This document shows positions 19,799 to 33,863 of a stretch of DNA of 64,000 bases, in pieces. Within the stretch, counting starts at the first letter, position 1; each line of letters begins with the position of its first letter. This DNA comes from Candidatus Chloroploca mongolica (GTDB taxonomy: Bacteria; Chloroflexota; Chloroflexia; Chloroflexales; Chloroflexaceae), in contig NZ_SIJK02000026.1 in NCBI RefSeq assembly GCF_004762035.2, forward strand, positions 1 through 64,000. Reading direction: 5' to 3'. The notes beneath the pieces were generated by a model. It was given only the letters and a program-made list of their open reading frames with translations, was not told the DNA's origin and did not search any database. Both the position numbers and the translations under genes were made by a program.

Positions 19799-19869
19799 GC
19801 GTTACTTGCGTAAGCGCCGATTTCCTGCTATGATTCAGCCTATCTATACTTTACCCCATGGAGAGGCTG

Positions 19870-26067: not shown

Positions 26068-26190
26068 ACGCTACTCCTCGCAATAAGGCAGGATGATGTA
26101 TGACGACGATTATAGCACTCTGTCATGGTATAATGCGCCAGCAATATGTACCATGTGCCGTCCCGCACCGACGGGCGCAGGAGGCTCTGC

Positions 26191-27270
26191 TTGACCTATG
26201 TGCTGACGCTCAAACCGCAAGCCCCGGGCTTGACCCGTCCTCAGCGCATCTTGCTCAAAATCGATGGCGAGCGGATTGTGGATGTCGAATATCGTCCCGA
26301 TACCGAGACCGAGACCGCGCTGACCCATGCCGCCCAGTTTACCCCGGCCCAACTCATTGCCGCCGCTGCCCAATCAGCCCCGGGCTGTGGGGTCGCCCAT
26401 GGGATGGCGCTCTGTCAGGCCATCGAACTTTTGGCGGGGATTGAAGTTCCCCCACGGGCGGCTTTTTTACGGGTTGCCGCAGCAGAACTTGAACGGGCCA
26501 GTTCGCATGGGGCCGCCGTCGCCGCGATCCTGACGACGCTGGGCCTCGCCAGTCTCGCCGAGCCCTTCACCGCCACGGCAGCACGCCTCCAGGCAACCTT
26601 GATCACGCTGACGGCAACTGAACCAGGTGACTGGCTCATCCCCGGTGGCGTAGGCTATGATAGCGATGCCTCGGTGCGCGAAGTGCTTGAGCAGACCTCA
26701 GCTGAACTTATTGCGACCCTCTTCCCTCTCGTTGACCACATGCTGAACCAGCGTTCGTTGCTCGCCCGTACGGTGGATGTCGGGGTCATTACCACTCACG
26801 CCGCAACGCAGTTTCGGCTCGAAGGCCCCCTCGGGCGGGCCTCTGGGCTCACAAGCGATCTGCGGATCGACAAGCCCTATGCAGCGTATGCGAGCCTACA
26901 GCCAGACCGTGTGACCCAGCCGAGTGGCGATGTGTATGCGCGTCTGGTCGTGCTGGTGCTTGAGTTGCTCGAGAGCCTCAAACTGGTTGGGCGGGCTTCG
27001 CGTGAGTTGCCCGGCGGCGAGATTTGTGGGGAATTGCCCGAACGCTTGCCGGCAAGTATCACCAATGCAACCGTCGAAGGGGCCCGTGGCCCCATTACGT
27101 ATCATGTCGAGAGTGATGGCCGTCGTTTGACCAGTGTCAGCTATCGGCTCGCTCCACAGGTTGAACGGTTGTTGACTCGTAGTCTCCTTGTGAATGCACG
27201 GATTGATGATGCTGCGCTCGTTTTTGTTTCAACCGATCCATGTGATACCTGTCTGGAGACAGGCTACTGA
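26191..27270 (+). CDS. Complex I 49-kDa (NuoD) / group-4 hydrogenase large subunit-like protein
   Basis: 359 residues from TTG 26191, decided by AGGAGG six bases upstream; an upstream ATG (26146) has no such site. GLTRPQRILLKIDGERIVDV is the NuoD/HycE N-terminal hairpin. APGCGVAHGMALCQAIELLA, then GIEVPPRAAFLRVAAAELER, matches the hydrogenase RxCGxC...H region, but the Arg and the second Cys are lost. The C-terminal DPCDTC keeps the second CxxC. The active site is therefore altered and Ni binding is doubtful. It is the first gene of a five-gene operon with no Fe-S subunit (NuoB, NuoI) in view. Confidence 0.75.
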   Translation: MTYVLTLKPQAPGLTRPQRILLKIDGERIVDVEYRPDTETETALTHAAQFTPAQLIAAAAQSAPGCGVAHGMALCQAIELLAGIEVPPRAAFLRVAAAELERASSHGAAVAAILTTLGLASLAEPFTATAARLQATLITLTATEPGDWLIPGGVGYDSDASVREVLEQTSAELIATLFPLVDHMLNQRSLLARTVDVGVITTHAATQFRLEGPLGRASGLTSDLRIDKPYAAYASLQPDRVTQPSGDVYARLVVLVLELLESLKLVGRASRELPGGEICGELPERLPASITNATVEGARGPITYHVESDGRRLTSVSYRLAPQVERLLTRSLLVNARIDDAALVFVSTDPCDTCLETGY

Positions 27271-29009
27271 TGTTTTTCCTTGTACCAACCATCATGCTGC
27301 TTGCCGCAGCACTAAGCTTTGGGCTTGGACAGCTTGTGCCTGCACGCCAGATCGGGTTTGGCGCGGCGCTCACGATGCTGATCACCCTTGGTATCCTTGG
27401 GATAGCACCCTTGGCAACACCTGATGAACCACCTATCGTGGTGTTGATGCTGGGAACGGTAAACGCAAGCCTCACGCCCGGTTTGCTAGCCCATGAACGT
27501 GCGCTCGCACTGGCGCTCCTGGGGGGCGGGGGGCTGACAATCCTCACGCTCGCCGCGGCCATTGCCCCGGGGGTGCGTGGATTTGGGACAATTTTTGGCT
27601 GGGCGCTGATCTGTTTGACGGCAGCCGTGACGAGCCTGGCCGCCCCCCCGTTTTCGCTTGTCCATCCGTTCGTCTGGACCGTGATGACGCTCGGTGGCTA
27701 TGCGATGCTTCAGGCCAGTGGGGTCACAACGGGCACGGCGGTTGCGCCAGAAGCAACGGTCTTGTTGCCCCGCGGCTTGATCACAGGTCTGCTGGCGAGT
27801 CTGCTGGTCGCCGCCGCCATCCTTGCCCCTGGGACGCTGATTGAAGATGGAACCCTGTCGATGTGGCCGGCCCTCGTGTTGCTGCTTGTCGCGACCTTTG
27901 CCTTTACGGGAAGCCCCCCCCTGGCCGGTGGCCGCAACGAGGCCTTTGCCTTTCCTGCGCCCCTGGCAACCCTGGTCTATGGGCTCGCTATGCCGGTGGC
28001 GGGCCTCAACTGGTTCATGGATGTCATCAGCGCTTTGCCGATTTTACCCAATCGCTGGGCGATGGCGATTGCGTTGCTCGGGACATTCGGCATGCTCGGA
28101 TGTGCCGCAGCAGCACTTGCAACCCGGCGTCTACGTCCATTGCTTGCGTTGATGCTGACGTTTCAGGTGGCCGCCATTGTGCTTAGTATCGGCCTGGCCG
28201 GGCCGCTTGCGGCGCTGGCAGGACCGGGGCAACTGGTCAGCCTTATGTTGAGTGGGGTCATTGGGGCGACAGCCGTGGCGAGCTTTGAACGCATGACGGG
28301 AAGCGACGATGTGACGGTGCCAGGCCTCGCGTTGCCCCGGCTCGTTGGGGTGATGTGGCTCGTTGCAGCAGCACTCACCCTCGGCTTGCCGCCACTGTGG
28401 GGGTTCTGGCCGCGTCTGTGGCTTTTACAAGCTATCCAGGAGCAGTACCCCTGGCTCCTTGCCCTGGTGATGGCAAGCATGGTGCTGATGGTGCTGGCCC
28501 TCCTCGTGCCCCTCGCCCGGCTCTGGGGGCAGGGCAAGGAACGCACCGGATCGGGGATGGGTTTAGTTGAGCGGCTGCTATTTGCGCTGGCTGGCGTGCC
28601 ACTGGTGCTGCTCGGGTTGGTACCGACTCTCGTATGGGAACCCTGGCTCGCCACGCTTACCTTTGCACCGGTGGACTTTCCGGTCAGCTTCGGGGCACAG
28701 CTTGCGACAGGGATCGCAGGGGGCGTCTTGGTTGTACTGACACTTATGATCGCTCGCCGCCCCAGTGTACGGACGCTCGAACGGAACCTTGATGAAGAAC
28801 CCATCTTCTTGACTGCCGAAGGGCTAGGAACGTTGTTGCAACCTCTGGCGCACCTGAGTAACCCGATCCAGGGCTGGCAAGCTATCTGGCAAGGGTTGCA
28901 AGGAGTCAGTCGGGGGTTACGCTTTCTGCTTGGATTCTTTGAACAGCGCTACTATCTGCTGGGTGTGTTGGCAGCGCTACTTACGATTATGTTGTTGATG
29001 GCACAATGA
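27270..29009 (+). CDS. Complex I / hydrogenase-4 type antiporter-like membrane subunit
   Basis: 579 residues, mostly hydrophobic with about 14 predicted helices. The start overlaps the previous stop (TGATG), implying translational coupling. LALMLTFQVAAIVLSIGLAG resembles the helix that follows the discontinuous TM segment of NuoL/M/N proteins, and LTLGLPPLWGFWPRLWLLQA matches the LsLaGlPPlsGFwaK motif. The C-terminal third (NLDEEPIFLTAEGLGTLLQP, then a last helix) resembles the tail of long NuoL/HyfB-type subunits. The conserved ion-path lysines are hard to locate, so coupling may be altered. Confidence 0.65.
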   Translation: MFFLVPTIMLLAAALSFGLGQLVPARQIGFGAALTMLITLGILGIAPLATPDEPPIVVLMLGTVNASLTPGLLAHERALALALLGGGGLTILTLAAAIAPGVRGFGTIFGWALICLTAAVTSLAAPPFSLVHPFVWTVMTLGGYAMLQASGVTTGTAVAPEATVLLPRGLITGLLASLLVAAAILAPGTLIEDGTLSMWPALVLLLVATFAFTGSPPLAGGRNEAFAFPAPLATLVYGLAMPVAGLNWFMDVISALPILPNRWAMAIALLGTFGMLGCAAAALATRRLRPLLALMLTFQVAAIVLSIGLAGPLAALAGPGQLVSLMLSGVIGATAVASFERMTGSDDVTVPGLALPRLVGVMWLVAAALTLGLPPLWGFWPRLWLLQAIQEQYPWLLALVMASMVLMVLALLVPLARLWGQGKERTGSGMGLVERLLFALAGVPLVLLGLVPTLVWEPWLATLTFAPVDFPVSFGAQLATGIAGGVLVVLTLMIARRPSVRTLERNLDEEPIFLTAEGLGTLLQPLAHLSNPIQGWQAIWQGLQGVSRGLRFLLGFFEQRYYLLGVLAALLTIMLLMAQ

Positions 29010-29731
29010 GTATCAACTGGCTTCTGCTTGGAATTGGGATTACAGCCGCAGTCATCCTGCTCTTTCGGGACTGGCGCATTACCGTCGCTGCCCTGTTGCT
29101 CAACTATGTGGCCCAGGCCTTCTTCCTCGTCGAGCAGCAGTTTATCAGCGGGGATCTGCCGATCTTTGGGTTCGCGGTGAGTACCCTGCTCGTGATCAAG
29201 ATTATTACCGGGATCAGTGTCGCGCTGATCCTGGGCATTACTGCGCTCACCTTCTCACGCGAGTATGGCCTCGAGAATCTCGATGAGTTTGGGATGGCCG
29301 AGTTGCGCCGGGCCGCTCGCGCCGCGCAACGCCAGCGCGCCAATCAACCGTTTCAGTTCAGCGAGTATGTGTTGCCCTTCTGGGCTGGCGTCCTGGCCCT
29401 GCTCGCCAGCCTGATCCTGCCACAAGTCTATGCAATTGCACCTACAGTAGCCAGTGACTTTGCCTGGTACTGGCTGGTGCTGACGGGCATTCTGACGATC
29501 GCTACGGCGGTCGATGTGTTGAAGATCGGCCTCGGGTTGCTGCTCTGTGTAAGTGCGGTTGACCTGCTCTATATGGCTGTGGTTAGTACACCTGATGCGA
29601 GTGGGCTGAATGTGATTCCACTTGCGCTCTTGAGCCTGTTCCATCTGCTGCTGGCCCTGGCCGTAGCGTATTTGAGCGGGCTCCTCTACGGACGACTCAA
29701 GACCCTCGATCTGAGTGAGCTCTATCGGTAG
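29006..29731 (+). CDS. Membrane protein, NuoK/HyfE-like position in complex I-like operon
   Basis: 241 residues with about six helices. The start overlaps the previous stop by four bases (ATGA). The sequence is not strongly diagnostic: three N-terminal helices (INWLLLGIGITAAVILLF, ITVAALLLNYVAQAFFLVEQ, VSTLLVIKIITGISVALILG) recall NuoK/HyfE, then a charged loop (ELRRAARAAQRQRANQ) and three more helices. The functional call rests mainly on position between two antiporter-like subunits. Otherwise it is an unknown membrane protein. Confidence 0.5.
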   Translation: MSINWLLLGIGITAAVILLFRDWRITVAALLLNYVAQAFFLVEQQFISGDLPIFGFAVSTLLVIKIITGISVALILGITALTFSREYGLENLDEFGMAELRRAARAAQRQRANQPFQFSEYVLPFWAGVLALLASLILPQVYAIAPTVASDFAWYWLVLTGILTIATAVDVLKIGLGLLLCVSAVDLLYMAVVSTPDASGLNVIPLALLSLFHLLLALAVAYLSGLLYGRLKTLDLSELYR

Positions 29732-29734
29732 GCC

Positions 29735-31186
29735 ATGCTCTATTTGCTTTTGATCTTTTTTCCGATCACGATGGCGATCAGTACGTTTATCCTGCGACGG
29801 AGAAGCGAACTGGTTATTTTTGCGGCGCTCGGCACGGTCCTGACGCAGGTCTGGATCGCGCTGCAATTGCCGATTGACCAGCCAACCCGGTTTCTGGGGG
29901 TGACGCTGACGCTCAGTACCCTGGGGCAGGTCTTTTTGCTGGTCTTTCTGGGGATTGGGGTGTTTGCCTTCATTGCCGCCCGCCATTTGCCGCATGGCGA
30001 GAATTTTGTGCCGATTACGCTGCTGACGCTCGCCCAGATCAGTGGCGTGCTCTTGCTGCAAGATCCCTTTATTACCACGCTCTTGCTTGCCTCCACCAGC
30101 CTGACAACCGTCCTGACGGTCGTTGATCTGCCTGTAGGCGCGAGTGCGCTCGTCAGTACACGGGTCATTGCCGCAGCCCTCAAGTATCTCGTCTTGATGG
30201 TCGTGGCTACGGTCTTGATGTATATTGCGTTTGTGCTGACTGATGTCTTCCAGCCTGGGGAACTACCCGGGCGCATTTCGCTTGCCCGTTTCATCCTGGC
30301 CCTGCTTGCGACCAGTTTCGCCCTGCGCCTGGCACTGATCCCGTTTCATACGTGGCTCACCGATCTGGTTGATCACGCCGAGGTTCTTGTTTCGGCGGTG
30401 ACGATTACCCTGCTCAATACGACGAGTCTGCTCGTGCTGATTCTCGTGTTTCAAAGCTATCCAATGCTGCTCGTCGAGAGTGCCGAAGTCCTCTTTGTGA
30501 TGCGGCTCGGGGCGCTAGTCAGCGTCATCGTCGCGGGTATCCTTGCACTGGCACCGGCATCGTTGCGCCGGACAATCGCCTACCTGATCCTCTACCATTG
30601 CGGGATCGTCTTCTATGGCCTGGCCGCCGTCTCGCAACTCGGGCTAGCCGGGGCGATCTTTGGGGCTTTTAATCAGACCCTGGCCGTGATGCTGCTCTTT
30701 GTGAGCCTCGGGTTGCTCGAACGCCCCGATGGCCGGACACCAGGGGTGCTCAGGCGGGATCTTTTGCGGCGCTGGCCGGTCGCGGCGAGCGGGTTGATCG
30801 TGAGCGGGCTCTCGCTGCTCGGGCTACCACCGCTCGGTGGGGCGATGAGCCATCTGTTGATCTATCAGGCGGCTGCCGAGAAGGGCTGGCTCGAGTTGTC
30901 GATTTTGTTGCTCGGCACGCTGCTCGCTGGGCTTGGCCTGGCACGAATCGCCGCTGAACGGTTGCTTGGCCCCGGCGAAGATACGCTTGTGGTCGAACCA
31001 CTGATGCTCGGTGAAACCGAACTCGACCGCCCGCCCCAGCGTCGCCTGGAACCCGAACCGCAGAGTGCCGCTGTGTTGACGTTGCTCTTGATGCTCATCA
31101 CCCTCGGCGTGGGCCTCTATCCGCAACCGTTGCTCGCGGTGATTGATGAGGCGATCCGTGGTCTCGCCTTTATCCAGGCTTTGTAG
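29735..31186 (+). CDS. NuoN/HyfB-like proton-translocating membrane subunit
   Basis: 483 residues, about 14 helices, starting four bases after the previous stop. ALRLALIPFHTWLTDLVDHA followed by EVLVSA is the best-preserved antiporter-subunit motif (normally K/R-PFHxWLPD), located mid-protein. RRTIAYLILYHCGIVFYGLA is the AyssisqiG motif and LSLLGLPPLGGAMSHLLIYQ the GlPPlgGF motif. This family forms ion channels in complex I, Mrp antiporters and membrane-bound hydrogenases. It is the clearest member of the cluster and supports assigning the others. Confidence 0.72.
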   Translation: MLYLLLIFFPITMAISTFILRRRSELVIFAALGTVLTQVWIALQLPIDQPTRFLGVTLTLSTLGQVFLLVFLGIGVFAFIAARHLPHGENFVPITLLTLAQISGVLLLQDPFITTLLLASTSLTTVLTVVDLPVGASALVSTRVIAAALKYLVLMVVATVLMYIAFVLTDVFQPGELPGRISLARFILALLATSFALRLALIPFHTWLTDLVDHAEVLVSAVTITLLNTTSLLVLILVFQSYPMLLVESAEVLFVMRLGALVSVIVAGILALAPASLRRTIAYLILYHCGIVFYGLAAVSQLGLAGAIFGAFNQTLAVMLLFVSLGLLERPDGRTPGVLRRDLLRRWPVAASGLIVSGLSLLGLPPLGGAMSHLLIYQAAAEKGWLELSILLLGTLLAGLGLARIAAERLLGPGEDTLVVEPLMLGETELDRPPQRRLEPEPQSAAVLTLLLMLITLGVGLYPQPLLAVIDEAIRGLAFIQAL

Positions 31187-31190
31187 ACTT

Positions 31191-32003
31191 ATGAATGCTC
31201 TTCTACTAATCATTGGCTCGGCGCTACTTTATCCTGGGGCATTGACCGCCCTTCTTGCGGGGGTGCTCTACCGGATGGTACGCCGGGGGAAACCTGGTGT
31301 CGAGGGCATGGCAGCGCTCCAAAGCCAGGAGGGACGGGCAAATCTGGCTGGGCTGGTGCTGGCGAGCCTGGGGTTGGCGTTGTTACCCTGGCCGCTGCAT
31401 CCGAGCGGCGCCACGGCGAGTTGGCTCTGGGCATGGATCGCCTTTGAACTAGCGTTTCTGGTGCCCCTTGTGCCAGCCTTGCTCACCGGAAGACCGGCGC
31501 TCGGGCGGGCGGCAATCCGCGAAGCCCAGCTTGGCACTTTTGCACGGGCCTTGTTGTGGGGTGCCCTCGCGGTGGCCTTGACCTTGCATCAACGCTGGGA
31601 TACAATCGCTCTACTTGCCCATATGCTCGCCCTGCTCGGGGCGCTGATCGCCTTCCCGGTCGCGATCGGGTGGGGGCCCTTTGGCCCTGAAGAGTTTATC
31701 ACCCCAGGGGGGGTGGCGGCCGGGCTCGATGCCGATGGGCAGGCTTTGGACAAACTAGCCCGTGATCTGCGTGCCGGAATGTTGCTAGCAGCAGTACTTG
31801 TGGCCGTGTTACCCGTCGGCCTGGTTCCAGCTTTCATCAGCTTGCCGCTGATAGTTGGCGGGATCGTGATCGGGGCACTGCTCTTGCGTAACTTTGACGG
31901 TCGCCAGGCACGCCTGACCCTGCCTGATGCGCTGCGCTTCTGTTTGATCTGGCCCCTACCGTTGACCCTAGTCGCAACTGTGGTGCTGAGTGTGGTACGC
32001 TAA
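31191..32003 (+). CDS. NuoH/HycD-like membrane subunit
   Basis: 270 residues with about eight helices; starts four bases after the previous stop. IIGSALLYPGALTALLAGVL and YRMVRRGKPGVEGMAALQSQ resemble the first helix and quinone-side loop of NuoH/HycD proteins. The end, RQARLTLPDALRFCLIWPLP, resembles the family's closing RLRiDqalrFfW...P motif. In complex I this subunit joins the peripheral arm to the membrane arm. Its presence with a NuoD-like protein argues that a reduced membrane complex is assembled. Divergent; moderate confidence. Confidence 0.6.
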   Translation: MNALLLIIGSALLYPGALTALLAGVLYRMVRRGKPGVEGMAALQSQEGRANLAGLVLASLGLALLPWPLHPSGATASWLWAWIAFELAFLVPLVPALLTGRPALGRAAIREAQLGTFARALLWGALAVALTLHQRWDTIALLAHMLALLGALIAFPVAIGWGPFGPEEFITPGGVAAGLDADGQALDKLARDLRAGMLLAAVLVAVLPVGLVPAFISLPLIVGGIVIGALLLRNFDGRQARLTLPDALRFCLIWPLPLTLVATVVLSVVR

Positions 32004-32018
32004 ATGCTTGGAGCTTCA

Positions 32019-33083
32019 GTGACAGCCGTTATTGAAATTGCTAATCTGTACAAGGCCTATGGCGATGTGTCAGTGTTGCAAGGGCTCAATCTGCGGGTCA
32101 GAGCAGGCGAGTCTTTCGGCTTGCTGGGCCCCAACGGAGCGGGCAAATCAACGTTGATCCATTTGATGCTGGGCTTTTTGCGACCTGACCGGGGACAGAT
32201 CGCCCTGCTTGGCACCACCAAGCTTGAGCAGATCCGGCTACAAGTTGGCTATCTGCCCGAACGGCAGCGTTACCATATGGCCTACAGTGCCCGTGAGTAC
32301 CTGCGCTTTCTCGGAAGTTTCAGCGGGTTGACCGGGGCAGTCATGCACGAGCGGGTTGACCGTGAATTAGCCCTGGTGGGCCTCACCGAGGTAGCTGACC
32401 GCCGCCTGGCAACCTTCTCGAAGGGCATGCTGCAACGCCTTGGCATTGCCCAGGCATTGCTGATGGATCCCGATCTCTTGCTGATTGATGAACCTACTAG
32501 TGGTCTCGATCCTGCGGGGCAGCGTGAGGTGATCGACCTGCTCAACGAGGTGCGCCAGCGCAACCACACGCTCTTTCTGTGTACCCATTATATGCACGAG
32601 ATTGATCAACTCTGTGATCGCGTCGGGATCATGGCGAACGGGCGAATTGCGGTCGAAAGAAAGGTCGCTGACCTGCAGGGCATCATGAGTAGTGTACGGA
32701 TCAAGGTGCAAGGGATGACGGCGCATGTCCATGAAGCGCTGCACAGCCTCGGGCCAGGCATCCATTGTGAAGGCCAGAGTGTGCGCATCAGCCAGAATTC
32801 ACCGCGTTTGCAAGCAGCGGTCTTGCGTACCCTGCTGGATGCGAATGTGGTCATCCTCATGCTCGAGCCGCTGGAAAACCCCATTGAACGCCTCTACCTT
32901 GAGACAATTCAAGCCACCAAGCTACCGAGTGGCCTGCACACGCCCTTGGGCATACTCAATGACCCACAGCGCCCCATCCTCCCCCGCACGCCTCCAGATA
33001 ATGTGGCGTCACCAGAGCGCCAGGGTGAGCGCGATCCTCTTTTGCATGAACTGTTGCAAGCCGGAAAGACCGAAGACAAATAA
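32019..33083 (+). CDS. ABC transporter ATP-binding protein
   Basis: 354 residues from GTG 32019, which has GGAG five to six bases upstream; ATG 32004 directly abuts the previous stop. Walker A is LLGPNGAGKSTLIHLMLGFL, the signature is FSKGMLQRLGIAQALLMDPD, Walker B is LLIDEPTSGLD, and the switch His is in LFLCTHYMHEIDQLC. The extra C-terminal 130 residues carry a small beta domain (IKVQGMTAHVHEALHSLGPG) as in ABC-2 exporters. It pairs with the permease downstream and appears co-transcribed with the complex I-like genes. Confidence 0.9.
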   Translation: MTAVIEIANLYKAYGDVSVLQGLNLRVRAGESFGLLGPNGAGKSTLIHLMLGFLRPDRGQIALLGTTKLEQIRLQVGYLPERQRYHMAYSAREYLRFLGSFSGLTGAVMHERVDRELALVGLTEVADRRLATFSKGMLQRLGIAQALLMDPDLLLIDEPTSGLDPAGQREVIDLLNEVRQRNHTLFLCTHYMHEIDQLCDRVGIMANGRIAVERKVADLQGIMSSVRIKVQGMTAHVHEALHSLGPGIHCEGQSVRISQNSPRLQAAVLRTLLDANVVILMLEPLENPIERLYLETIQATKLPSGLHTPLGILNDPQRPILPRTPPDNVASPERQGERDPLLHELLQAGKTEDK

Positions 33084-33116: not shown

Positions 33117-33863
33117 ATGCGGCTGTTACGATTTACCGGCTTTTCGCTACTCGAATATCTACGCTCGGGCAGGGTTGCCATCGAGATCATTGCCGCACTG
33201 CTGATCTATGCGATCTTTTTGCGTCGCCCAATGGATGTGACCTACTTTTTCAATGTCGTCGGCATCTTTACGCCCCTGTTGACGCTCTATACGATGGCAA
33301 TCGTGATCAGCCTCGGGGATCGCCCCCAGGGTTACGTCGTCGTCTCACGGGGCATCGGACGAGCCACGTTTCTCCTCGGGCTCTTTTTGACGGCGTGGAC
33401 ACTTGTCGCCGGAACATATGGGCTTGTCTCGCTCATCGTCGCATTCCTCAATCCTCCCACCGAGCTTGATCTGCTCAACTGGCTGCTCGGCACCCTGCCG
33501 TTGCTCCTCAATATTGGCCTGCTCGCCGCCTTGATGCTCTTGCTGTCACCGCTGGTCTTGCCGACAGGCTGGCGGCTCTTTATCTTGAGCCTGATCGCGC
33601 TCGCTTTTTCAGGGAATTTTATCGGGGGGCAACTGCTCAATGCGCTTCCCGAAGCGGTGCGATCACTGCTCCGCGCCCTGCAGGCGCTGCTTGGTGGCCC
33701 CCTAGTGCCCGCCTTTTATGGCTTTCAACTCGCGGTCACTCGCGATTATAGTTCAGCCACAGCCCTGGCGAATCTCTTCGCCCAGGCGTCGCTCCTCGTT
33801 TCACTCCTCGGGCTTGCGATCTATGCGTTTGCCCGACGTGATCTGATCTTTAGTACACAATAA
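33117..33863 (+). CDS. ABC-2 type permease
   Basis: 248 residues with six hydrophobic segments (for example IEIIAALLIYAIFL, VVGIFTPLLTLYTMAIVISL, LGTLPLLLNIGLLAALMLLL). The opening MRLLRFTGFSLLEYLRSGRV is an amphipathic start common to ABC-2 permeases. It begins 33 bases after the ATPase gene and completes the transporter. The substrate is unknown. Similar ATPase/permease pairs help assemble membrane oxidoreductases in some systems, but nothing here proves that. Confidence 0.75.
   Translation: MRLLRFTGFSLLEYLRSGRVAIEIIAALLIYAIFLRRPMDVTYFFNVVGIFTPLLTLYTMAIVISLGDRPQGYVVVSRGIGRATFLLGLFLTAWTLVAGTYGLVSLIVAFLNPPTELDLLNWLLGTLPLLLNIGLLAALMLLLSPLVLPTGWRLFILSLIALAFSGNFIGGQLLNALPEAVRSLLRALQALLGGPLVPAFYGFQLAVTRDYSSATALANLFAQASLLVSLLGLAIYAFARRDLIFSTQ

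Follow-up and report, generated by a model that had tools for sequence, protein, structure and literature searches.

A group 4 hydrogenase-type membrane module of Chloroflexales that has probably lost its redox function in Candidatus Chloroploca mongolica

We analysed a stretch of 64,000 nucleotides (the window) from Candidatus Chloroploca mongolica, order Chloroflexales (NCBI RefSeq assembly GCF_004762035.2, contig NZ_SIJK02000026.1, positions 1 to 64,000). Reading of its open reading frames (ORFs) places five consecutive plus-strand genes, A to E, at positions 26191–32003. They encode a membrane module related to complex I and to group 4 [NiFe] hydrogenases, and comparison with relatives suggests that the window's version has probably been kept for a role other than redox chemistry. 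The genes, the site at which relatives hold a further gene (NB) and a neighbouring ATP-binding cassette (ABC) pair are as follows.

A, 26191..27270, plus strand: 359-residue NuoD/HycE/MbhL-like large subunit; Ni motif degenerate, C-terminal DPCDTC retained.
B, 27270..29009, plus strand: 579-residue NuoL/HyfB/MbhH-type antiporter-like subunit, lacking the Glu of transmembrane helix (TM) 5 and the TM7 and TM8 Lys.
C, 29006..29731, plus strand: 241-residue membrane subunit, tentatively HyfE/NuoK-like.
D, 29735..31186, plus strand: 483-residue NuoN/HyfF-like subunit; TM7 Lys replaced by Arg, TM12 Lys by His.
NB site, 31187, no strand: position at which relatives hold a NuoB/MbhJ-like gene (~125 codons); no trace in the window.
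E, 31188..32003, plus strand: 271-residue NuoH/HycD-like subunit; start TTG at 31188 or ATG at 31191.
F, 32004..33083, plus strand: 359-residue ABC ATPase, a conserved neighbour, ending in a linker and LLxELL tail at the C-terminus.
G, 33117..33863, plus strand: 248-residue ABC permease-like membrane protein; no Pfam match, with strong matches nearly confined to the order.

The initial annotation of this locus described five adjacent genes for NuoD-, antiporter-, NuoK-, NuoN- and NuoH-like proteins, a description that Pfam, profile searches and structural models confirm, with the NuoK-like part tentative. The product of A matches Pfam Complex1_49kDa (1.9e-28) and, among PDB sequences, HycE (6.6e-25) and then MbhL (3.3e-24). 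B alone has no Pfam match; its family profile matches subunit H of membrane-bound hydrogenase (MBH; 4.1e-21) among solved structures, and its AlphaFold model resembles NuoL chains. D matches Pfam Proton_antipo_M (1.3e-17). E has no sequence match in Pfam or among solved-structure sequences and its profile is borderline against Escherichia coli HyfC (7e-4); its predicted model (predicted local distance difference test score 87) resembles HycD of formate hydrogenlyase (FHL; 7z0s_D; Z 20.4 over 258 residues, 3.4 Å) and the H chains of complex I (Z 18–20), as expected for a predicted NuoH fold. For C, the comparison with solved structures gave only a very weak match to MBS antiporter subunit C (E 6.4), and hhalign against E. 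coli HyfE gave a probability of about 1%. The reported gene overlaps of one to four bases hold at two junctions, A/B (1 base, 27270) and B/C (4 bases, 29006–29009), but C and D are separated by 3 bases and D and E by a short gap. Gene A starts at TTG, with an upstream ATG at 26146 as a possible alternative. No fusions among module genes turned up in the loci examined.

Conservation and synteny across relatives, which the initial annotation had proposed to check, proved extensive. With gene C as the marker for counting, 74 of the order's 82 genomes have the module, including 55 of the 56 high-quality ones. Gene A (95%) marks the window's genome as close to Candidatus Chloroploca. Families f1 (Chloroflexaceae) and f4 share the arrangement A-B-C-D-[NB]-E-F-G; family f2 lacks F and G beside E. 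In f3, the Herpetosiphon-like family, A-B-C-D and NB-E-F-G lie at separate places wherever both could be read, except in G057, in which all genes are together.

The NB gene between D and E in relatives encodes a protein of ~120–130 residues with a CxxC..C..C iron–sulfur (Fe–S) pattern, a Pfam Oxidored_q6 domain and MbhJ as its best PDB match (1.2e-18). Dedicated copies, defined by a profile E < 1e-30, were found in 44 of the 82 genomes searched and in none of the window's clade; three single-contig genomes are among those without NB. The window's genome holds no NB of the module family. It yields only two weak matches (the better at 46.5 bits, C81:73131), both with the strength of complex I NuoB matches, one from each of its two complex I loci. 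On a quick maximum-likelihood tree of A–D from 66 genomes, which has some long branches, NB was lost once in a 26-genome clade that contains the window and Chloroflexus (Shimodaira–Hasegawa-like approximate likelihood ratio test support 100), and again in G003 and in G061; G060, a genome 76% complete, also lacks it. Because relatives carry NB between D and E, the module, which the initial annotation called an orphan, is not one by origin. The clustered NuoB-like gene that the initial annotation named as telling against its view does exist in relatives, but it has been lost in the window's clade and in two further lineages.

Most of these genomes are drafts, and the absence of NB might be put down to assembly artefacts. 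We find this scarcely credible, since in 29 loci without NB, including the three single-contig genomes, a single contig carries D and E at close range. The D–E spacing is 9–474 bases in 28 of the 29 and 735 bases in G007, in which frames are split, and no NB remnants were found in these gaps.

Where NB persists, it is not always equipped for electron transfer. Outside f3, 35 of 36 copies have all four cluster Cys and one has three. In f3, by contrast, all eight copies lack every one of the four, although the five tested still match a profile built without f3 copies at 2.4e-32 or better.

Loss of the cluster is accompanied by decay of the Ni site in the large subunit. In the window, the Arg of the Ni motif is replaced by Gln, the first Cys by Ala and the Gly by Pro, with the second Cys and the C-terminal DPCDTC retained, as the initial annotation had described for the Arg, the lost Cys and the DPCxxC. 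The group 4 hydrogenase motifs are L1, C[GS][ILV]C[AGNS]xxH, and L2, [DE][PL]Cx[AGST]Cx[DE][RL] (PMC7886697); the window protein reads A-P-G-C-G-V-A-H at L1, with the first Cys and the Gly gone, and DPCDTCLE at L2, and so departs from them. The R-x-C-G motif is broken in each lineage that lost NB: the Gly is Pro in 25 members of the 26-genome clade and Ser in one, Arg in G003 (with further losses) and Lys in G061 (with one C-terminal Cys also gone). Of the order's 34 cluster-less genomes, 33 have a broken version of this hydrogenase-type Arg-Cys-Gly motif. With G060 left out of the count, the state of the cluster matches that of the Arg/Gly motif in 61 genomes out of 65, or in 62 of 65 once the NB of G335, a genome outside the order, is rescored as Cys-less; the remaining exceptions are G057, G016 and G049. 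The decay within the clade is local. Residues near the N-terminus and at the site vary, and the large subunit is otherwise largely fixed, with R96, E101, E103, R104, G156, D226, R254, E261, C354 and C357 invariant in all 26 members.

The distribution of the maturation protein HypD was also determined. HypD is present in 50 of the 82 genomes and absent from 32, including all 11 g21 genomes; because of this absence, a Ni-Fe(CN)2CO centre of the usual kind is improbable in the g21 large subunits, even though four Cys are retained in all ten that were read.

The genes of the module are held under purifying selection. By the Nei–Gojobori method, the window compared with two Chloroploca-like members of its genus has ratios of nonsynonymous to synonymous substitution rates (dN/dS) of 0.07–0.21 across A–G. 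Two pairs from the Chloroflexus genus (g9) give 0.03–0.14, leaving aside F and G in one pair, which were saturated; close f3 pairs give 0.016–0.07. The lowest value, 0.016 in one pair, belongs to the Cys-less NB. These data bear on whether the module is a decaying remnant on its way out, a reading that could draw on the successive losses of Ni ligands, NB and the TM12 Lys and on the split D and E frames in G007. We regard it as very improbable, given that the A–E order is intact in several families, that dN/dS is well below 1 for every gene and that gene C is nearly universal among high-quality genomes. Among simpler candidates, a functional hydrogenase was rejected on the motifs and the HypD pattern, a pseudogene on dN/dS and an assembly gap on D–E adjacency.

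Could the complex still be redox-active, with the NuoB of complex I, or an Fe–S protein encoded elsewhere, docking on the NuoD/NuoH pair and supplying electrons? The C-terminal CxxC of A is retained in 26 of 26 clade members and four Cys persist in most genomes without NB. However, the Arg, the Gly and adjacent conserved site residues decay in every lineage that lost NB, the strong selection on the Cys-less f3 NB indicates a structural role without a cluster, and a ferredoxin motif scan of 77 loci returned six matches with no recurrent gene. We therefore judge continued redox activity to be quite unlikely.

Proton or ion translocation was assessed from the channel residues of B and D. Proteins above a length cut were scored against five complex I proteins of the window's genome. 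The TM5 Glu is absent from all 64 D and all 65 B proteins of the order, and the TM7 and TM8 Lys are absent from all 65 B proteins; conservation of channel Lys and Glu, which the initial annotation had proposed to examine, was thus not borne out at these positions. Of the 64 D proteins, 63 carry Arg in place of the TM7 Lys. All 20 f4 proteins retain the D subunit's TM12 Lys, as do all six f1 proteins from genomes with NB, against only one of 27 f1 proteins from genomes without it; this Lys is kept in G003 and G061, which lack NB, and varies in f2 and f3, which speaks against a simple link with the cluster. The channel set of Mrp and complex I (TM5 Glu, TM7 and TM8 Lys, TM12 Lys or Glu) is therefore incomplete. 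Throughout the order, the antiporter-like subunits have lost the canonical TM5 Glu and TM7/TM8 Lys, so that ordinary proton pumping by the module appears doubtful. Residue roles are those described for complex I (PMC9271201), in part general background for TM5 and TM7. The antiporter-like protein of G335 retains the TM5 Glu and TM7 Lys.

A related proposal is that the module is no more than an ion antiporter of the Mrp/DAB type, or a transporter driven by protons, in which NuoD and NuoH form a coupling cap. The antiporter-like, N-like and HyfE-like proteins are retained and selected, and NuoL homologues free of redox partners exist, such as DAB2 (PMC13144422). Nevertheless, we consider this proposal unlikely: the TM5 Glu is missing from every protein scored, B has no TM7 or TM8 Lys, the TM12 Lys was lost in the window's clade, and DabA (DUF2309), the expected partner, has no Pfam match among the 19 ORFs scanned at 19858–40006. 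The ion-translocating role suggested in the initial annotation is weakened accordingly, but conserved Arg and Glu remain, and ion movement is therefore possible.

The neighbouring ABC pair is the best candidate partner of the putative complex because of order-wide linkage, the association of F and G with NB-E in the split f3 loci, and a conserved F tail. F directly follows E in 57 of 67 loci; five of the others end at a contig edge and five, all f2, lack F, which gives 57 of 62 checkable loci. An LLxELL-type match occurs in F orthologues of f1 (29 of 34) and of f4 outside g21 (8 of 9), with shuffled sequences at 0.02–0.04. In f3 and g21, some matches to the pattern lie in the domain, outside the tail, and five lower-scoring copies or fragments have no tail. 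In a sample of 301 genomes from the phylum, G was detected in 37. Every one of the 29 listed genomes from the order is among them, one being an f2 genome with an unlinked G; the other 8 lie outside the order and match more weakly (9.8e-28 at best).

Taken together, these observations make it probable that the module is a derivative, specific to this order, of a group 4 [NiFe]-hydrogenase or Ehr-type (energy-converting hydrogenase-related) complex that has become redox-inert several times and was retained for a membrane function of a non-redox kind, perhaps together with the ABC transporter. Support is good for the loss of redox activity; the function is inferred. Judged by its genes, the window's complex is without the electron path of its relatives, because the Fe–S subunit was lost and the active-site motif and conserved residues near the N-terminus decayed. 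This agrees with the initial annotation, which saw no evident electron route, and long-term retention in that state makes the suspected repurposing likely. The repeated loss of electron-handling parts, together with strong selection, implies a job that probably needs no electron transfer. The sequences show that, within the order, the complex comprises large, antiporter-like, HyfE/NuoK-like, N-like, NB and H-like subunits, with the ABC pair behind. The window's clade has lost NB and let the motif of A decay, retaining the remainder under purifying selection, and f3 has followed a second route in which NB stays, without cluster Cys, under strong selection.

Several findings weigh against this interpretation. 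The independent-pairs test on the tree had only three pairs and gave no significance, the loss events being few. G057, of f3, retains Arg-Cys-Gly without a cluster, and the large subunits of G016 (L041) and G049 (L071) have lost all four Ni-site Cys (to Ser, Ala, Asp and Asp) with the four Cys of NB intact. The four Cys of the former Ni site persist in 21 of 27 f1 genomes without NB, so some metal chemistry may survive. The window's genome has HypD, possibly required there by other hydrogenases, and it encodes two complex I sets, each with a NuoD locus, that might in principle lend their NuoB. The G053/G054 pair reaches a dN/dS of 0.31. The assignment of C as HyfE/NuoK-like, from size, place and a very weak match, is tentative, and the functional role and the ABC link are both drawn from sequence.

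How a redox-inert module might work can be sketched only tentatively. It is possible, though we would not lean on it, that A now caps the H-like subunit on the cytoplasmic side without any catalytic role and that the membrane arm, with Arg and Glu residues that are conserved but re-wired, gates an ion or substrate or anchors and regulates the neighbouring ABC transporter. A bolder version seems improbable to us: that the module gave up redox chemistry on at least four independent occasions and had its energy input replaced by the ABC ATPase F, which, with its conserved LLxELL tail, would dock on the complex, with ATP hydrolysis and the membrane arm driving each other or a common substrate.

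Comparison with known systems places the module closest to group 4 [NiFe] hydrogenases (MBH, FHL/Hyc and Hyf). The large, antiporter-like and H-like subunits and the small subunit of relatives have their best or near-best solved relatives there, and E. coli Hyf proteins match the A, B, D and NB profiles. Unlike these enzymes, the module has incomplete L1 and L2 motifs and no NuoI/HycF-type ferredoxin subunit was found near it, many of its bearers lack HypD, and a small subunit with four proximal-cluster Cys is missing from the window's genome but present in relatives. Ehr complexes combine a hydrogenase-like large subunit without full Ni ligands with antiporter-like subunits, according to PMC6349859, and both features recur in the module; Ehr is proposed to be redox-coupled, whereas the module's only Fe–S subunit is lost in the window's clade or Cys-less in f3. 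Complex I (NuoD, H, L/M, N, K and B) appears to share the subunit folds, as far as the models indicate, but the window's cluster has no NADH module or Fe–S subunits and the canonical channel Lys and Glu are gone. DAB2 and Mrp resemble the module in that NuoL-type proteins function without electron transfer (PMC13144422 and PMC7419157); the module differs in retaining NuoD and NuoH and in its missing channel residues.

The mechanism of complex I turns on the coupling of NuoB/NuoD chemistry to the membrane arm. Within one order, cluster, active-site and channel residues vanish stepwise and the genes are still selected, a natural series in which the requirements of the NuoD–NuoH–membrane arm unit for redox coupling are set apart from those for some other task. 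The module occurs in the model phototroph Chloroflexus aurantiacus; in the accessible portions, the C. aurantiacus genome paper lists two nuo clusters without the module among them (PMC3150298) and the text of a proteome paper does not mention it (PMC9316378). A search by title and abstract, in literature mostly outside subscription journals, found no published description of the module.

In a 400-genome phylum sample, gene C matched in 68 genomes. Of these, 40 belong to the order; beyond them the match is strong in G335 (2.2e-36), which lies outside the order, and weak in 27 genomes. G335, which belongs to the same class, has A-B-C-D-NB at its locus (L107), with an NB lacking cluster Cys and a large subunit with four Cys; an E gene was not found within the 19 kb locus. 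In the Herpetosiphon-like genome G058, A-B-C-D and NB-E-F-G (L085 and L102) lie ~2.4 Mb apart on one contig. In G007 (L069), both D and E are broken into two frames, through either an assembly error or a young pseudogene. Three loci from other Chloroflexota (L108, L110 and L111) carry an orphan trio of antiporter-like, HyfE-like and N-like genes with no NuoD, NuoB or NuoH homologue detected nearby, beside neighbours that we take to resemble lgt and ffh. At L113, C-like and D-like genes alone remain together, adjoining what is presumably a translation or ribosome maturation operon.

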